Origin: a virus
Virus record (IMG/VR): IMGVR_UViG_3300046536_000243
Span: 1 to 27,348 of that record
Direction: 5' to 3' (one strand)
Length of the DNA stretch: 27,348 bases
Position numbers and translations under genes: made by a program. This document shows positions 92 to 26,551 of this stretch, piece by piece (within the stretch, counting starts at the first letter, position 1; every line of letters starts with the position of its first letter). The notes under the pieces are model-generated. The model was not told the DNA's origin. It saw only the letters and a list, made by a program, of their open reading frames with translations, and did not search any database.

Positions 92-490
92 TCATAGGCC
101 CCTCTGTGATGTGATTACTTCTTCCATGAGCGTCAACATCGCCATCCGCGCCAACCACTGAGACAAAGCACGGTTCCCAACTTCTCTTTCAAAATCTGCG
201 ATGTAGCGAGCTGGCAAATCCTGGCGGGGCTTGCCATGTCGGTCGACCGGTTCACGGTTGAGCATGTTCGACATGTGCGAGCCCTTGATCTCAAGCTTTT
301 CAGCCAGCGTTCTTTGCGTCATGCCGCGAAGTGCCCGGTGTTCCCACGCGAGGCAAACGGCATCACGGAAAGATGCGCAGGCGGCGATTGCCTCCTTCGG
401 AAGAAAGCGCGCGGACGAAGGAGTAAATCCGCGCGGATCGGCCTCTAAGGCGTGTGCAGCGGCCCTGTTCGGCGTTTGTTGAATCTGCAT
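92..490 (-). CDS. HTH regulator in the cII position
   Basis: A 132-residue protein. Residues about 45-85 read as an XRE-like helix-turn-helix (MTQRTLAEKLEIKGSHMSNM), followed by an LPARYIADFEREVGN segment typical of small phage DNA-binding proteins. A GGGGA ribosome binding site lies 8 nt before the ATG. It is downstream of the cro-like gene on the same strand, separated by a hairpin (563-578) and three direct repeats (516-547). Position and fold suggest a CII-like lysis/lysogeny activator or an early-gene repressor. Sequence similarity to lambda CII itself is not evident, so the role is inferred from context. Confidence 0.8.
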   Translation of the reverse strand: MQIQQTPNRAAAHALEADPRGFTPSSARFLPKEAIAACASFRDAVCLAWEHRALRGMTQRTLAEKLEIKGSHMSNMLNREPVDRHGKPRQDLPARYIADFEREVGNRALSQWLARMAMLTLMEEVITSQRGL

Positions 491-942: not shown

Positions 943-1045
943 GGCTGTAACGATAGCATTTGCTCTCGCACAGCGCAAGCACTTGCTCGCAAAACAATAG
1001 GATTTGCTATCACAGCAAATGCTAGTTTTCGGTTTTAATGCCACC
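943..1045. promoter_or_regulatory. OR-like operator region between cro-like and cI-like genes
   Basis: Three copies of the palindrome AGCA-NN-TGCT are present: AGCATTTGCT (955-964), AGCACTTGCT (978-987) and AGCAAATGCT (1014-1023). The third overlaps a wider dyad, TTTGCT-N5-AGCAAA (1003-1019). The first two flank the spacer of the cro promoter. The third lies in front of the repressor gene, where a TTTAAT -10 candidate (1034-1039) would start transcription almost exactly at the repressor ATG (1046). This is a three-operator lambda-type layout. Confidence 0.75.
950..978 (-). promoter_or_regulatory. PR-like promoter for the cro-like gene
   Basis: Read leftward: TTGCGC (978-973), a 17-bp spacer, then TATCGT (955-950) with an extended -10 TG. 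Two AGCA-NN-TGCT operators abut the -10 and the -35, so repressor binding would block polymerase. The predicted start of transcription is about 1 nt before the cro-like ATG. Confidence 0.65.
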
Positions 1046-1849
1046 ATGGACATCGATGCATACCGCCGGGCGCGGCTACAGGAGCTGGTAGACAAAGAAA
1101 CGGGCGGCAATGTCGCAGCGTTCGCGCGCGCGCACCCTTTAGCGGTGGACGCAACAAGATTGAGGCAGATGCTCAGCCCGACTTATCGGGGCGGCGCCGG
1201 GTTCAGGGAGGGCGCAGCGCGCAAGCTTGAGAAAGCACTCGGGCTACCAGATCTGTATTTCGATTTTGGTATCGAGAGCGCACTTGCGTCCAAGCACGGC
1301 GCCGGCCTATTTGATAAGCCGATCAGCGACCCAAATGGTGGCGTAATTAAGCAAACGCCTACACAGCACCGGCATAATCTGAGCGAACAGGATCTCCCAC
1401 ATCCAACCGAAGAAGAGTTCGCTTTCGTGCCCCAATTAGATATGGCAGCCGCTTGTGGAGACGGACGCTTTGAAGACCACGTCGTTGTAAAAGGCGGCTT
1501 GGCCTTCAAACGGTCCAGTTTGCGCGATTTCGGCGTTCCGGAGCATGCCGCCCGGATTATTTACGCAACTGGCGGCAGCATGGCGCCGACCATCCAGGAC
1601 GGGCGCGTTGTCCTGCTCAACCTTGCCGACACAGAGCCTCGAGACGGAAAGATCTTCGCGATCTGCAAGCCTGATGACGGCTTGGTCTTGAAGCGTTTGA
1701 TATGGGACTTCCATGCGTCCATGGGACGGCAGACCTGGATAATGCGCAGCGATAATCCCGACAAGATCGCTCACCCCGATAAGGTCTTGCCGCCCGACGA
1801 TCGTACGATGATCGCCGGCCGCGCCGTGTGGACGGATAGTTTGCTTTGA
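1046..1849 (+). CDS. CI-type phage repressor with S24 (LexA-like) peptidase domain
   Basis: A 267-residue repressor. The N-terminal part (about 1-75) is a helical DNA-binding region. The C-terminal part (about 125-267) is an S24 autoproteolysis domain, with the nucleophile at Ser178 in GGSMAPT, the general base at Lys216 in LVLKRL, and a probable cleavage site Cys137-Gly138 in AAACGDG. This predicts RecA-stimulated self-cleavage and SOS induction, as in lambda CI and LexA. The start at 1046 is chosen over the upstream in-frame start because that extension would cover an operator. No Shine-Dalgarno is visible and a -10 candidate ends 6 bp upstream, so a leaderless message is likely. Confidence 0.93.
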   Translation: MDIDAYRRARLQELVDKETGGNVAAFARAHPLAVDATRLRQMLSPTYRGGAGFREGAARKLEKALGLPDLYFDFGIESALASKHGAGLFDKPISDPNGGVIKQTPTQHRHNLSEQDLPHPTEEEFAFVPQLDMAAACGDGRFEDHVVVKGGLAFKRSSLRDFGVPEHAARIIYATGGSMAPTIQDGRVVLLNLADTEPRDGKIFAICKPDDGLVLKRLIWDFHASMGRQTWIMRSDNPDKIAHPDKVLPPDDRTMIAGRAVWTDSLL

Positions 1850-1860
1850 GGCGGGAAGAT

Positions 1861-2109
1861 ATGTCGGAAAGCGATGTTGAAGGGAGGCTTCGGCGTGCGC
1901 GAGCAGCGCTTACGGCCTATGGAGTCGGAATGCGCCAGTTGGCGCGAGTCGCCCAGGAAATTGCGGAGCCGATCCGGTCAAGAATGAAGCGCGAAGATTC
2001 TGCCGGGCCCCCGAGCGCTGCCGATCATGCAGTTATCGATGCCTTGACGAAAATCATAGAGACTGTTGAGAAAACGGCCACTGAAGTGGGGAAGGCCTTG
2101 GATGAATGA
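1861..2109 (+). CDS. small helical protein downstream of cI
   Basis: An 82-residue protein, beginning MSESDVEGRLRRARAALTAY, charged and probably all helical with no membrane segment. The ATG at 1861 has a purine-rich GGCGGGAAG upstream. A TTG further upstream would overlap the repressor stop and is less likely. It lies between the repressor gene and a membrane protein gene and ends at a shared terminator, so it should be expressed in the lysogen. I do not recognise the family. Confidence 0.65.
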   Translation: MSESDVEGRLRRARAALTAYGVGMRQLARVAQEIAEPIRSRMKREDSAGPPSAADHAVIDALTKIIETVEKTATEVGKALDE

Positions 2110-2413
2110 TGCAGAAAAACTGATCGAACGCATACGAAGGATTCCGCCGCCGCCTCAAGGGCCATCGGTTGACGGAAACGCCGCCTCAGGCGATGATGGC
2201 GGCATGGAAGCCAGAATCTCAGCCCTCGAATCGGCAAACCTCGAAACCCGCGATCGCCTCATCAAGATTGAGACGCGGATGGATTCTCTTGCGTCCAAAG
2301 AAGATCTGCACAAAGAACTGTCAGCACAAACGTGGCGCCTGGTCACATTCGTGTGCAGCTTCGGCACGGCCCTCGTTGCGGCTACCTACTTCATAGCGAA
2401 GCACGCCACCTGA
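2102..2413 (+). CDS. coiled-coil protein with C-terminal membrane anchor, lysogen-expressed
   Basis: A 103-residue protein. It has an amphipathic start, a Pro/Gly-rich linker (about 14-34), a predicted coiled coil (about 35-74, MEARISALESANLETRDRL) and one hydrophobic segment (about 79-99) close to the C-terminus. The ATG at 2102 overlaps the previous stop by 8 nt. It is the last gene before the terminator, so it is expressed with the repressor. Tail-anchored or single-pass proteins in this position often protect the lysogen against superinfection. That role is inference, and the family was not identified. Confidence 0.7.
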   Translation: MNDAEKLIERIRRIPPPPQGPSVDGNAASGDDGGMEARISALESANLETRDRLIKIETRMDSLASKEDLHKELSAQTWRLVTFVCSFGTALVAATYFIAKHAT

Positions 2414-2447
2414 AGATCGGCTTAGCCGCCCCAGCCCACACATACGA

Positions 2448-2471
2448 GCCCAGCCCCGCGCTGGGCTTTTT
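2448..2471 (+). terminator. intrinsic terminator of the repressor operon
   Basis: GCCCAGC (2448-2454), a 5-nt loop, GCTGGGC (2460-2466), then five T residues. It ends the rightward repressor operon and overlaps the stop codon of the convergent gene at 2471-2671. Confidence 0.9.
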
Positions 2472-2671
2472 CATTTCTGCCTCTGCGCGAACCCTTCCCG
2501 CCACAACGTTGCCCCGACTGACGTCAGCAACGCCAAGTCATCCCCCTCGAACATCGCCCAGTTCTCTGCTAGCCAGCCCGCAAAGCCGGCGCAGGCGTCG
2601 CCTATCGGGATGTCAGCCCGCCCCTCTACATTCAGGCGCTCAAATACGGCGATCACTTCCTCTGACGTCAT
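2471..2671 (-). CDS. small acidic protein convergent to the repressor operon
   Basis: A 66-residue acidic protein (MTSEEVIAVFERLNVEGRAD at the start). It has an excellent ribosome binding site (AAGGAGGT, 6 nt from the ATG), which is the main support for a real gene. It is the only leftward gene between the repressor operon and the early promoter region around 2700-2811, from which it would diverge. No domain recognised and no membrane segment. Confidence 0.75.
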   Translation of the reverse strand: MTSEEVIAVFERLNVEGRADIPIGDACAGFAGWLAENWAMFEGDDLALLTSVGATLWREGFAQRQK

Positions 2672-2747
2672 GGTCGACCTCCTTCTGATCCATTCAGTCT
2701 AGGCGCCATACCTCTCGCAAGCACTGTTTTGCGTGCGCCCAACAGAG

Positions 2748-2765
2748 CGATAAAAATATTTATCG
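2748..2765. repeat. AT-rich inverted repeat upstream of the early promoter
   Basis: CGATAAA (2748-2754) and TTTATCG (2759-2765) are perfect inverted repeats with a 4-bp centre. They lie between the leftward gene 2471-2671 and the rightward early promoter. They could be a second regulator's site, an IHF-like bend or an upstream element. Confidence 0.5.
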
Positions 2766-2773
2766 AAAACGAT

Positions 2774-2811
2774 AGCAGATGCTTGCGTTAAGCGAGAGCG
2801 TTTGCTATTGT
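2774..2811 (+). promoter_or_regulatory. PL-like early promoter with two operators
   Basis: TTGCGT (2783-2788), 17 bp, TATTGT (2806-2811) with extended -10 TG. AGCAGATGCT (2774-2783) abuts the -35, and AGCGTTTGCT (2797-2806, one mismatch to AGCA-NN-TGCT) abuts the -10. The operator starts are 23 bp apart, exactly as at 955 and 978 in the cro promoter. This marks it as repressor-controlled and as the start of the long rightward early operon. Confidence 0.75.
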
Positions 2812-3254: not shown

Positions 3255-3978
3255 AGGTCGAAACCGCCGCAACTCACCGCGGCAGGTCAGCGGATTATGT
3301 CCGCTCTGACGAGACCAGAAGTTCTCAACGCGCAACGGCGCACAACTCGGTTGACAGCGAGTTGCGATCTTTAACATGACCGGAAGATAAATAGGCTCGA
3401 GCAATCGAGTCCTGCCCTTGGCCGTGACGGCAGAAGCAAAAGTCACGAAATGCTGGCCAGATGAGCCGGTTCCGAAAGGCGCGTAAATCGATCGCGGGGT
3501 AATCGGTAAAACCACGCGGCAGCTGGAGCCAGCTTGCTGGAAGTAGCCAGCGCCGCGTGTGATGCAGTACCCAGTACCCAGCGCACGGTAAGCGCATTCG
3601 ATGAGTGCATTTACCGGGCTATGGCACTTGCAGGTTGTTTTCGAGGTCTTGGGCGTGATCGTGCAGAACCTGCCAGCAGCGACCTGACGTGGTAGTCGCC
3701 GACTTGCCGCCGTAAGCGGCTCCGAACACCGCAGTAGAGGAACACAGGCGCATGGCGTCGTCTGGTAGGGCAAGTGGATCTTTCAAAATTTGCGGATAAA
3801 CGGATCGCCCTCGAGAGAGCGCACCCATCCCCGTCCTGCCGGATGAGAGAAGCACAAAAGGCAGAAAACGTCAGCGGCTGGACCGTTGATCGATCGCGAA
3901 AGCGACGCCCAGCTAACCCTGGCGAGATAAAGGTTAGCACCCGCCAGACCGGCCAATAGATGCACGGTCGGTCTGGAT

Positions 3979-4087
3979 GCAGTTTTCAACGATGGCGTGG
4001 CGCAGAGTGCGGTTTCCACGTGGTAGCGCGCCGGCCCCGGGGTCGGAGGTCGCTGGTTCGAATCCAGCCGCCATCGTTGAAAGCTGC
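3979..4087. repeat. 19-bp inverted repeat enclosing the tRNA-like element
   Basis: The left arm 3979-3997 and right arm 4069-4087 are complementary at 18 of 19 positions, and the exception would be a G-U pair in RNA. The inner 7 bp are the tRNA-like acceptor stem. The outer 12 bp extend it well beyond a normal tRNA end. Confidence 0.85.
3991..4076 (+). tRNA. tRNA-like element with D-loop insertion and unusual anticodon arm
   Basis: Acceptor GATGGCG (3991-3997) pairs with CGCCATC (4069-4075), followed by discriminator G. The D stem is GCGC (4000-4003) with GCGC (4026-4029). The T arm is GCTGG-TTCGAAT-CCAGC (4052-4068), preceded by the typical variable loop AGGTC. The D loop is 22 nt, about 13 more than normal. 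The anticodon stem CCGGC/GTCGG (4031-4035, 4042-4046) closes a 6-nt loop CCCGGG without the conserved U33, so no anticodon can be assigned, and no CCA is encoded. It may be a decayed tRNA, a non-decoding tRNA mimic or an odd phage tRNA. Confidence 0.6.
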
Positions 4088-4332
4088 TGAAGAGAACGAA
4101 TTGCATTCCCTGCCACAGTAGTCCGGCGTAAGGCGATGCTTGGTCAGAGGACTTTAGCCCTGACTTCATGACACGTACACCAGTAGGAAACTCCCTGGCA
4201 AAGCGTAGTGCGTTCTCTTGAGCAACACATAAACGATTTCTCTTACAGTTGCCGATTCTCGCGAGTCGGTAGCCATAAGGGTGATCAGAGAGTTGGCGTA
4301 ATGCGAGCCATTAGTACAACTACGGAGCAAAC

Positions 4333-24472: not shown

Positions 24473-26551
24473 CTTGCCGCCAGTCTGCGTATAAGGCAGA
24501 GAACCAATTCCGATTCCTCCAAGAGTCGCCAATGTCGAAGTCGGAGCTGTCGCTAGTCCGGCCGCTACAGATCCTGGCGCAAGTAGCGACATCAGGCCTC
24601 GACCCACTGTTCCGGAATCCGGGTATTTCGATCCAAGCACACTTTGGCCGGCGCCAGAAAGGTCTTGCATCAGGGCGTTACCCGTTGCCGTTGCCCCCTT
24701 TCCTGCCGACTTATCTGCACCGCGCACCGCACTTTGCAATTGCGCACCAGTGAAGACGCCACCGTTGTTCATCGCACCGGTCGAAGATGCGGCGGAACGC
24801 AGCCGCACGAAGTTTGCCCAAGCCTTATTCGCATTCGATAGTTGATCAGCCAGATCAGATGGATTTACGCGCGCGAGGTTACTATCAACGGCATCGCGTA
24901 GAGAACTGACTGCCGCGCCGAGTTGTCGGTTATCGAATGATGGATCTTTCAGGTAGCCGCTCGATATGCGTGCGAGTTCGCTCTGAACGCCCTTAAGCGT
25001 CTGACCATCCATGTTTCCCTGTGGGCCGAGCTTGTCGAAGATCTGCGTTTTTAGGACGTTCATGAACGTCTTTTGTTGTGAATCCGGGAGGCTGTTCGCC
25101 ATCTGTCCGAGATTCGTTACATCCGCCTGAAACTGCGGATCGACCTTCATCTGCATTTTCGGCAACACCGAGTCATAGGCCTGACCGATGGTCTTGCCGA
25201 CCTGATCGATACCCTCCTGACCGACATTGCCGCTGAACGTCTTACCGATAGGTGCCAGTGCATCGTTGTAGGCAGCAGCGTTGAACTGGCCGACTGCGCG
25301 CTGCTGCGCGTTCTTAATCATGTCGCCAAGGACCGGCAAGCTGGTAAGCTTGTCTTCAATACGCGCGAATCCACCACCGAGAATCTGCCCCGGCGTGGGC
25401 GTTACGCCGCGGTTCATCAGTGTCTGTACATCAGGCGAAATATTGGGTGAGATAATGTGGCCTGCGAGACCTGCCAATGGTGATAGGACACCGCCAGCTG
25501 CAGCGCCAAGTACAGTTTGCTGGCCTTTATCGCCCCAATAGTCCTGGCTGTTCGGATCGACAGGAGCAAGTGCGCCGGTGATGCCGCCAAGGCCGGCGCC
25601 GACCGCTGCCATTCCTGGAAGCGTACGCGCGACAGGAGCAAGCGCACCGAGTGGCGCAGTCGCGGCAATCGAGCCCGCCACATTGCCTGCTCCCGTAGCA
25701 ATCGGATGTGCCGCCGAGTATGGTGCGACTTCCTGTGCGCCGTGTGAGAGGCCCTGATTAGCGTCATTGACTAGCCAGTTACCGACACCATTTAGACCGA
25801 CTGCCTGCGCTCCATGCCCAAGCAATTGCTGCGCACCGAGAGCAGTTTCCTGCATGCCGCGGCCGACTCCAGCAAGGAATGAGGTGATGCCACCCGGTTG
25901 ATTATTTTGTGATGCAGGTTGTGGCTGTGCCGTCTGCTGTTGCGGTTGAGCCGATGTAGCCGATGGGGCAGATGATCCCTTTGTGAACGCCGAGAGGATC
26001 TGATCATCATTCGGACCAGCCTGCGTTTGTGGCTGAGCAGCAGGGGCTGAAGTCTGCTGCGCCTGTTGTTTCGGCTGCGTAGCAGAAGCACCCTTGCTGA
26101 AAGCAGCAAAGATTGCATCATCGCTCTGATTGCTCGAAGGTGCGCTAGGGATTCCCGGAAGTACCGAAGGAGTCTGATTGTTTTGTGTCGGCATATTTAC
26201 TCCTGCTGCTGCCAGAACCTTCCCAGGGTATGCTGCATTTACCGGTCCCCATTGAGACGTATCATTGCCCCCTTGGTAGTGCCGCAGTGCAGTCGAGACA
26301 TCGCCATACTGATCGAGTAACCCAGAAAGCAACTTGGCGCCGCCGTTGATATTCTGGACGGGATCGGTCGGATCGGTGATGCCCAGCGCCTTGTAATTCG
26401 ACGGCATAATCTGCATGAGGCCGGTCGCAACTTTGCCCGAGACGGCACCCTTATTACCGCTCGATTCGGTCGCGATGATGCCTCGAAGCAGATTAGGGTC
26501 GATGTTATTCGACTTTGCCGCCTGCTGGATGATGTCGTCATACTGACTCAC
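24350..26551 (-). CDS. internal virion/ejection protein with lytic transglycosylase domain
   Basis: A 733-residue protein. Residues about 1-115 form an SLT-type lytic transglycosylase, with catalytic Glu29 in IIATESSG, then GLMQIMPSNY and ALRHYQGG. A Gln/Ala/Pro-rich linker (about 120-220) holds two copies of DDxIxxAFxKGxS (144-156 and 182-194). The middle (about 220-360) is Ala/Gly-rich and may enter membranes. The remainder is helical. Such proteins are ejected with phage DNA and locally open peptidoglycan. ATGA overlap with the upstream virion gene. Confidence 0.88.
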   Translation of the reverse strand: MSQYDDIIQQAAKSNNIDPNLLRGIIATESSGNKGAVSGKVATGLMQIMPSNYKALGITDPTDPVQNINGGAKLLSGLLDQYGDVSTALRHYQGGNDTSQWGPVNAAYPGKVLAAAGVNMPTQNNQTPSVLPGIPSAPSSNQSDDAIFAAFSKGASATQPKQQAQQTSAPAAQPQTQAGPNDDQILSAFTKGSSAPSATSAQPQQQTAQPQPASQNNQPGGITSFLAGVGRGMQETALGAQQLLGHGAQAVGLNGVGNWLVNDANQGLSHGAQEVAPYSAAHPIATGAGNVAGSIAATAPLGALAPVARTLPGMAAVGAGLGGITGALAPVDPNSQDYWGDKGQQTVLGAAAGGVLSPLAGLAGHIISPNISPDVQTLMNRGVTPTPGQILGGGFARIEDKLTSLPVLGDMIKNAQQRAVGQFNAAAYNDALAPIGKTFSGNVGQEGIDQVGKTIGQAYDSVLPKMQMKVDPQFQADVTNLGQMANSLPDSQQKTFMNVLKTQIFDKLGPQGNMDGQTLKGVQSELARISSGYLKDPSFDNRQLGAAVSSLRDAVDSNLARVNPSDLADQLSNANKAWANFVRLRSAASSTGAMNNGGVFTGAQLQSAVRGADKSAGKGATATGNALMQDLSGAGQSVLGSKYPDSGTVGRGLMSLLAPGSVAAGLATAPTSTLATLGGIGIGSLPYTQTGGKLAAALLTARPQLAKPVGNAVTGLGRLVVPGSLPALLSGSR

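Follow-up and report, generated by a model that had tools for sequence, protein, structure and literature searches.

Organization of the early region

The window, i.e. the whole stretch of DNA analysed here, holds the complete IMG/VR record of 27,348 bp, which comes from a soil phage. Since a near-identity search of annotated phages with this sequence gave zero matches, the comparison was built on IMG/VR contigs. Table 1 lists the features of the locus. The genes of a CI-like repressor and of a Cro analogue are arranged divergently, with putative operators lying over both start regions; a second set, matching in sequence, lies past the repressor operon at the opposite early promoter.

Table 1. 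Genes and predicted regulatory elements of the early region
Feature	Positions	Strand	Sequence or location	Basis or remark
YdaS-family Cro analogue, 112 aa	604..942	-	first gene of leftward early operon
Leftward early promoter (lambda PR analogue)	950..978	-		sequence; kept across 17 aligned sequences
Operator O1	951..968		CGATAGCATTTGCTCTCG; over PR -10	matrix rank 1, 25.7 bits
Operator O2	974..991		CGCAAGCACTTGCTCGCA; over PR -35	matrix rank 3, 19.4 bits
Operator O3	995..1012		CAATAGGATTTGCTATCA; core AGGATTTGCT	matrix rank 5, 14.9 bits
Operator-like O4	1010..1027		TCACAGCAAATGCTAGTT	matrix rank 8, 8.9 bits
Repressor promoter (PRM analogue), -10	1034..1039	+	TTTAAT	6 nt to ATG
CI-like repressor	1046..1849	+		N-terminal HTH and S24 autopeptidase domain
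Two small genes	1846..2413	+	position of lambda rexAB	ORFs; variable cargo slot in relatives
OL operator	2770..2787		CGATAGCAGATGCTTGCG; over rightward -35	matrix rank 2, 23.3 bits
Rightward early promoter (lambda PL analogue)	2783..2811	+		sequence; conserved at OL among relatives
OL operator	2793..2810		CGAGAGCGTTTGCTATTG; over rightward -10	matrix rank 4, 19.2 bits

The repressor matches Peptidase_S24 (1.1e-7) and PHROG 4, repressor (5.5e-26), and the Ser/Lys dyad formed by S178 and K216 is invariant in the alignment. Its predicted fold, a model of moderate confidence (pLDDT 70), resembles lambda CI and LexA mainly in the C-terminal domain; the HTH was assigned solely from predicted helices and weak PHROG matches. 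The product of the divergent gene, for which the label cro-like had been proposed, is indeed a Cro analogue and can be placed more precisely in the YdaS family: It matches Pfam YdaS_toxin (PF15943, 1.2e-9) and PHROG 35, transcriptional repressor (4e-12), and its predicted fold comes closest to a solved structure, YdaS of CP-933P (8co2; E 7e-4 in Foldseek), with Xylella Cro (3bd1) as a further match. The YdaS gene is followed by a weak HTH protein of 132 aa (92-490, minus strand), which occupies the position of lambda cII or ydaT.

In relatives, the slot that holds the two small genes downstream of cI (1850-2770) carries differing cargo, namely a HigB/HigA toxin-antitoxin pair (L030), DUF3800 (L022), DUF1828 (L028) or a DUF4760 membrane protein (L010), and is near-empty (~0.1 kb) in L017 and L018; L008 and L026 were also included in this comparison. 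A 66-aa ORF (2471-2671, minus strand) points away from the second operator and is similar in L008, L009, L010, L028 and L034 despite the change of neighbouring cargo. About 1 kb at the beginning of the rightward operon (3255-4332) is without a convincing gene; it contains a boxA-like element, GATCTTTAACA, near 3366 and a tRNA gene (3990-4077; Rfam tRNA, 44 bits) whose anticodon is unclear.

Two predicted early promoters and their putative paired operators

The leftward promoter consists of the -35 hexamer TTGCGC (978-973), a 17-bp spacer and the extended -10 element TGC-TATCGT (955-950). The rightward one has TTGCGT (2783-2788), again a 17-bp spacer, and TGC-TATTGT, with TATTGT at 2806-2811. 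Both thus have the TTGCG-type -35, spacer length and extended -10 that the original prediction had assigned to them, the common form being TTGCG(C/T)-17-TAT(C/T)GT with TGC ahead of each -10, and they are the only matches of the type TTGC-N16-TGCTAT in the window. About 60 bp ahead of the predicted rightward start lies an A/T-rich inverted repeat, CGATAAAAATATTTATCG (2747-2764); the A-tract near it is retained in relatives and is possibly an UP element or an IHF-type site.

Pairs of palindromes resembling AGCA-NN-TGCT cover the -10 and the -35 element of both promoters (951-991 leftward, 2770-2810 rightward). The cores AGCATTTGCT (955), AGCACTTGCT (978), AGCAAATGCT (1014), AGCAGATGCT (2774) and AGCGTTTGCT (2797) were found exactly at the coordinates first reported for them, and so was the distance of 23 bp from start to start within both pairs. 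Among sites scoring at least 7/8, no spacing from 10 to 40 other than 23 is seen twice. The proposed palindromic unit had to be modified: its core AGCA-NN-TGCT stands, but a width of 10 bp is too small, as the operator comprises about 18 bp with informative outer positions. The consensus is CGAAAGCA(N)2TGCTTTCG, i.e. CGAAAGCA-NN-TGCTTTCG.

A symmetrised position matrix was derived from the loci of 13 relatives, leaving out the window and its near-identical copies. AGC/GCT are its strongest positions, and the outer flanks add further information. In the 27.3-kb record, the five best sites are, in this order, 951, 2770, 974, 2793 and 995; the next one scores 4 bits below the fifth. Simulated windows contained on average 0.03 sites at the score of the four paired operators, and none contained a 23-bp pair. 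A scan for clustering, which had been suggested as a check, showed that in the window, and likewise in the relatives, the sites gather at the two early promoters; the even spread that would have spoken against operators was not seen. Only one further exact match to the core exists in the record, at 25821; it lies within a coding sequence and does not rank among the top 25 matrix scores. With a score of only 3.2 bits, 2716-2733 was rejected as a third OL site. Core matches elsewhere were checked in two further records (G001, 25274; G002, 26466), where they belong to a GC-rich hairpin, GGGAGCATTTGCTCCGGG, and were judged not to be operators. Searches of the open-access literature for the operator sequence brought up unrelated papers only, and the sequence itself was in none of those covered; a search for PDB codes of the YdaS structures likewise gave no relevant result.

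Operators and repressor domains in relatives

Searching viral contigs with the repressor protein identified 15 loci. All relatives from this search that have a similar N-terminal domain possess the 23-bp pair upstream of cI; wherever the sequence extends far enough, a second pair lies downstream, 0.9-1.9 kb from the cI start, and the intervening genes differ. Note that these loci are independent of the operator, whereas those of the following scan were chosen by the operator itself. A gene-blind scan of 2.9 million viral contigs (IMG/VR) with the 35-bp pattern of the leftward pair gave 16 stretches, every one of which adjoins a YdaS homologue and a CI N-terminal domain. The same pattern occurs in three contigs from 84,980 bacterial and archaeal genomes, and two of these, from Paraburkholderia tagetis and Caballeronia glathei, carry the same genes. 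The third match, in a Muribaculaceae MAG, has neither a repressor nor a YdaS match and was taken as chance. Peptide patterns of the repressor found nothing in the 84,980 genomes. Given the two Burkholderiaceae contigs, the window phage probably has its host in this family; the group is little studied, and its hosts appear to be bacteria of the Paraburkholderia/Caballeronia type.

Natural exchanges of repressor domains allow the operator to be assigned to one half of the protein. In L012, L013, L014, L015, L016 and L019, the C-terminal domain is 71-86% identical to that of the window repressor, the N-terminal domain only 17-34%, and the operator pair is missing. The reverse case is represented by L017 and L018 (N-terminal domain 73%, C-terminal domain 24%), which have the pair and were found independently of it. 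The operator-selected loci L022, L026, L028, L030, L034 and L035 likewise combine a window-type N-terminal domain and the pair with a different C-terminal domain. This correlation, the strongest evidence at hand, suggests that operator specificity resides in the N-terminal domain of the repressor. Together with the clustering at the early promoters, it supports the initial reading of the palindromes as repressor operators.

When one swapped locus (L013) was inspected by eye, the Cro analogue had apparently been exchanged along with the N-terminal domain of CI. Because YdaS accompanies the window-type domain and looks replaced in L013, its specificity is inseparable from that of the CI N-terminal domain. 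Other palindromes lie upstream of repressors that share the C-terminal domain but differ in the N-terminal one: TTACCCAAAGGGTAA in L012, TAGCGATTCGCTA in L013 and TTACCTTTAGGTAA in L015. The switches of these three loci are candidates for further immunity groups.

The repressor promoter and the sites O3 and O4

The additional core ahead of the repressor at 1014 had been noticed before; the number of sites had not been given correctly, as the cI-side region contains four rather than three, the one at 995-1012 having been overlooked. The centre of O3 is located at -42.5 from the predicted repressor start. Among 17 aligned sequences, its distance to the PRM -10 is constant and its sequence variable. 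O4 is centred at -27.5 and matches the matrix in the core only, its flanks being CAC/AGT versus CGA/TCG elsewhere. An 18-bp stretch of O4, ACAGCAAATGCTAGTTTT, is identical in 16 of the 17 sequences, with a single change in L011; O4 is the most invariant element of the alignment. The fit to the matrix is poorer for O3 and O4 than for the four paired sites.

The PRM analogue is without a recognisable -35 element. In all 17 aligned sequences, TNTAAT is followed after 6-7 nt by the ATG of cI, and the PR -10 sits 5-7 nt ahead of the ATG of the cro-like gene. As the -10 elements are so close to the start codons, both mRNAs are predicted to begin at or within 1-2 nt of the AUG, i.e. to be leaderless. 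In lambda, CI activates PRM when bound near -42; on this ground, we propose O3 as an activator site and O4 as a shut-off site.

A proposed switch and its alternatives

Very probably, the mirrored palindromes serve as the sites at which the repressor of an ordinary lambda-like lysogeny switch binds, and judged by its sequence the locus is, with high confidence, the lambda-type OR/OL immunity region of a temperate phage with a CI repressor and a YdaS-family Cro analogue. We infer that the N-terminal HTH of CI would bind the operators of about 18 bp with their core AGCA-NN-TGCT. CI dimers on O1 and O2, 23 bp apart, would cover both elements (-10 and -35) of the leftward promoter, from which the YdaS/Cro analogue is expressed, and dimers on the two OL sites would do the same at the rightward promoter with identical geometry. 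From O3, CI would probably activate its own promoter, like lambda CI from OR2. O4 probably serves to turn PRM off, and among the sites it is the likeliest to be preferred by the Cro analogue. Cooperativity or looping between OR and OL may contribute, and induction would follow autocleavage by the S24 domain, which would remove the repressor. A more detailed version of this scheme, which we put forward tentatively and would not bet on, reserves O4 for Cro (YdaS): CI would recognise it poorly owing to its different flanks, the core being shared, the outer bases discriminating between the two proteins, and both mRNAs being leaderless.

An alternative, in which the YdaS/Cro analogue is the principal or sole reader of the palindromes and CI recognises different or overlapping sequences, comparable to CI and Cro of PY54, is improbable: The N-terminal domain of CI follows the operator across exchanges of the C-terminal domain, and paired sites on both promoters are the usual layout for CI. 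This holds even though every operator locus also encodes a close homologue of YdaS (identity in relatives 61-86%), CP-933P has two overlapping kinds of repeats (PMC8630535), and the CI sites of PY54 differ from its Cro sites (PMC4488713).

One half of each palindrome is a promoter element (TGCTAT at -10, GCTTGCG at -35), so the likeness of PR and PL is partly due to promoter conservation. This overlap of half-sites with the -35 and -10 elements could suggest that the two regions merely share a duplicated sigma-70 promoter of the TTGCG/TGCTAT type and contain no operators, which we regard as very unlikely. Promoter conservation does not explain the other half-sites and the flanks, as the symmetry extends to both of them beyond the hexamers; O3 and O4 share the core although they lie away from PR and PL; and repressors with swapped N-terminal domains are preceded by different palindromes in the same intergenic region (TAGCGATTCGCTA in L013, TTACCCAAAGGGTAA in L012). 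A short palindrome that arose by chance can practically be dismissed, although the 10-bp core with one mismatch occurs 22 times in the window versus 13 expected (2 of 100 shuffles attained this number): when the window was simulated 1000 times with a first-order Markov model, one 23-bp pair occurred in 5 simulations and two pairs in none, and the conservation in all relatives sharing the N-terminal domain refutes it.

Comparison with known switches

In lambda, the two divergent early promoters carry operator pairs on their -10 and -35 elements, cI and OL are separated by small genes, a CI operator is centred near -42 of PRM, and cI is leaderless. The window resembles it in its putative OR and OL pairs, in the genes between cI and OL, in the predicted operator near -42 and in the predicted leaderless cI mRNA. 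It differs in the operator sequence, in the number of sites (four versus three in OR, two versus three in OL) and in its Cro analogue, which belongs to the YdaS family, unlike lambda Cro.

The closest parallels come from prophage CP-933P of E. coli O157:H7, where PaaR2 and YdaS were shown experimentally to be the analogues of CI and Cro; four 18-bp palindromes lie between paaR2 and ydaS, the paaR2 mRNA is leaderless, operators are found at PR, PRM and PL, and PL has the same promoter hexamers (PMC8630535). As in the window, YdaS diverges from the CI analogue over about 100 bp, cargo genes precede PL, and PL combines the same -35 and -10 with more operators past the repressor operon. The leaderless repressor mRNA, demonstrated in CP-933P, is a prediction for the window. 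By analogy with this precedent, the Cro analogue may read the same palindromes as CI (PMC8630535). In contrast, the operator consensus is of the GTTTAGTAA type in CP-933P and CGAAAGCA-NN-TGCTTTCG in the window, and PaaR2 is short (~15 kDa), whereas the window repressor, part of a switch predicted from sequence, has an S24 domain.

The immB region of PY54/N15 shares leaderless cI and cro mRNAs, which in PY54 have been shown to begin at the AUG (PMC4488713) and are predicted in the window; PY54 differs in that its Cro uses a single OR3 site and in being a linear plasmid prophage. The Rac prophage of E. coli K-12 has divergent repressor and YdaS genes (racR/ydaS) with repeated palindromes between them, like the window; its repeats are of the TTAGGC type, however, and a Shine-Dalgarno-like TTTGGAG precedes ydaS.

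In view of CP-933P (PMC8630535) and PY54 (PMC4488713), the architecture and the mechanism of the switch were already known; within the open-access literature searched, the operator sequence and the phage group are new. The results define an operator and a probable immunity specificity for temperate phages of Paraburkholderia/Caballeronia-type bacteria. Moreover, they provide a series of repressors whose domains have been swapped in nature and whose operators have changed accordingly; this series can serve to decipher the recognition code of the HTH family concerned.
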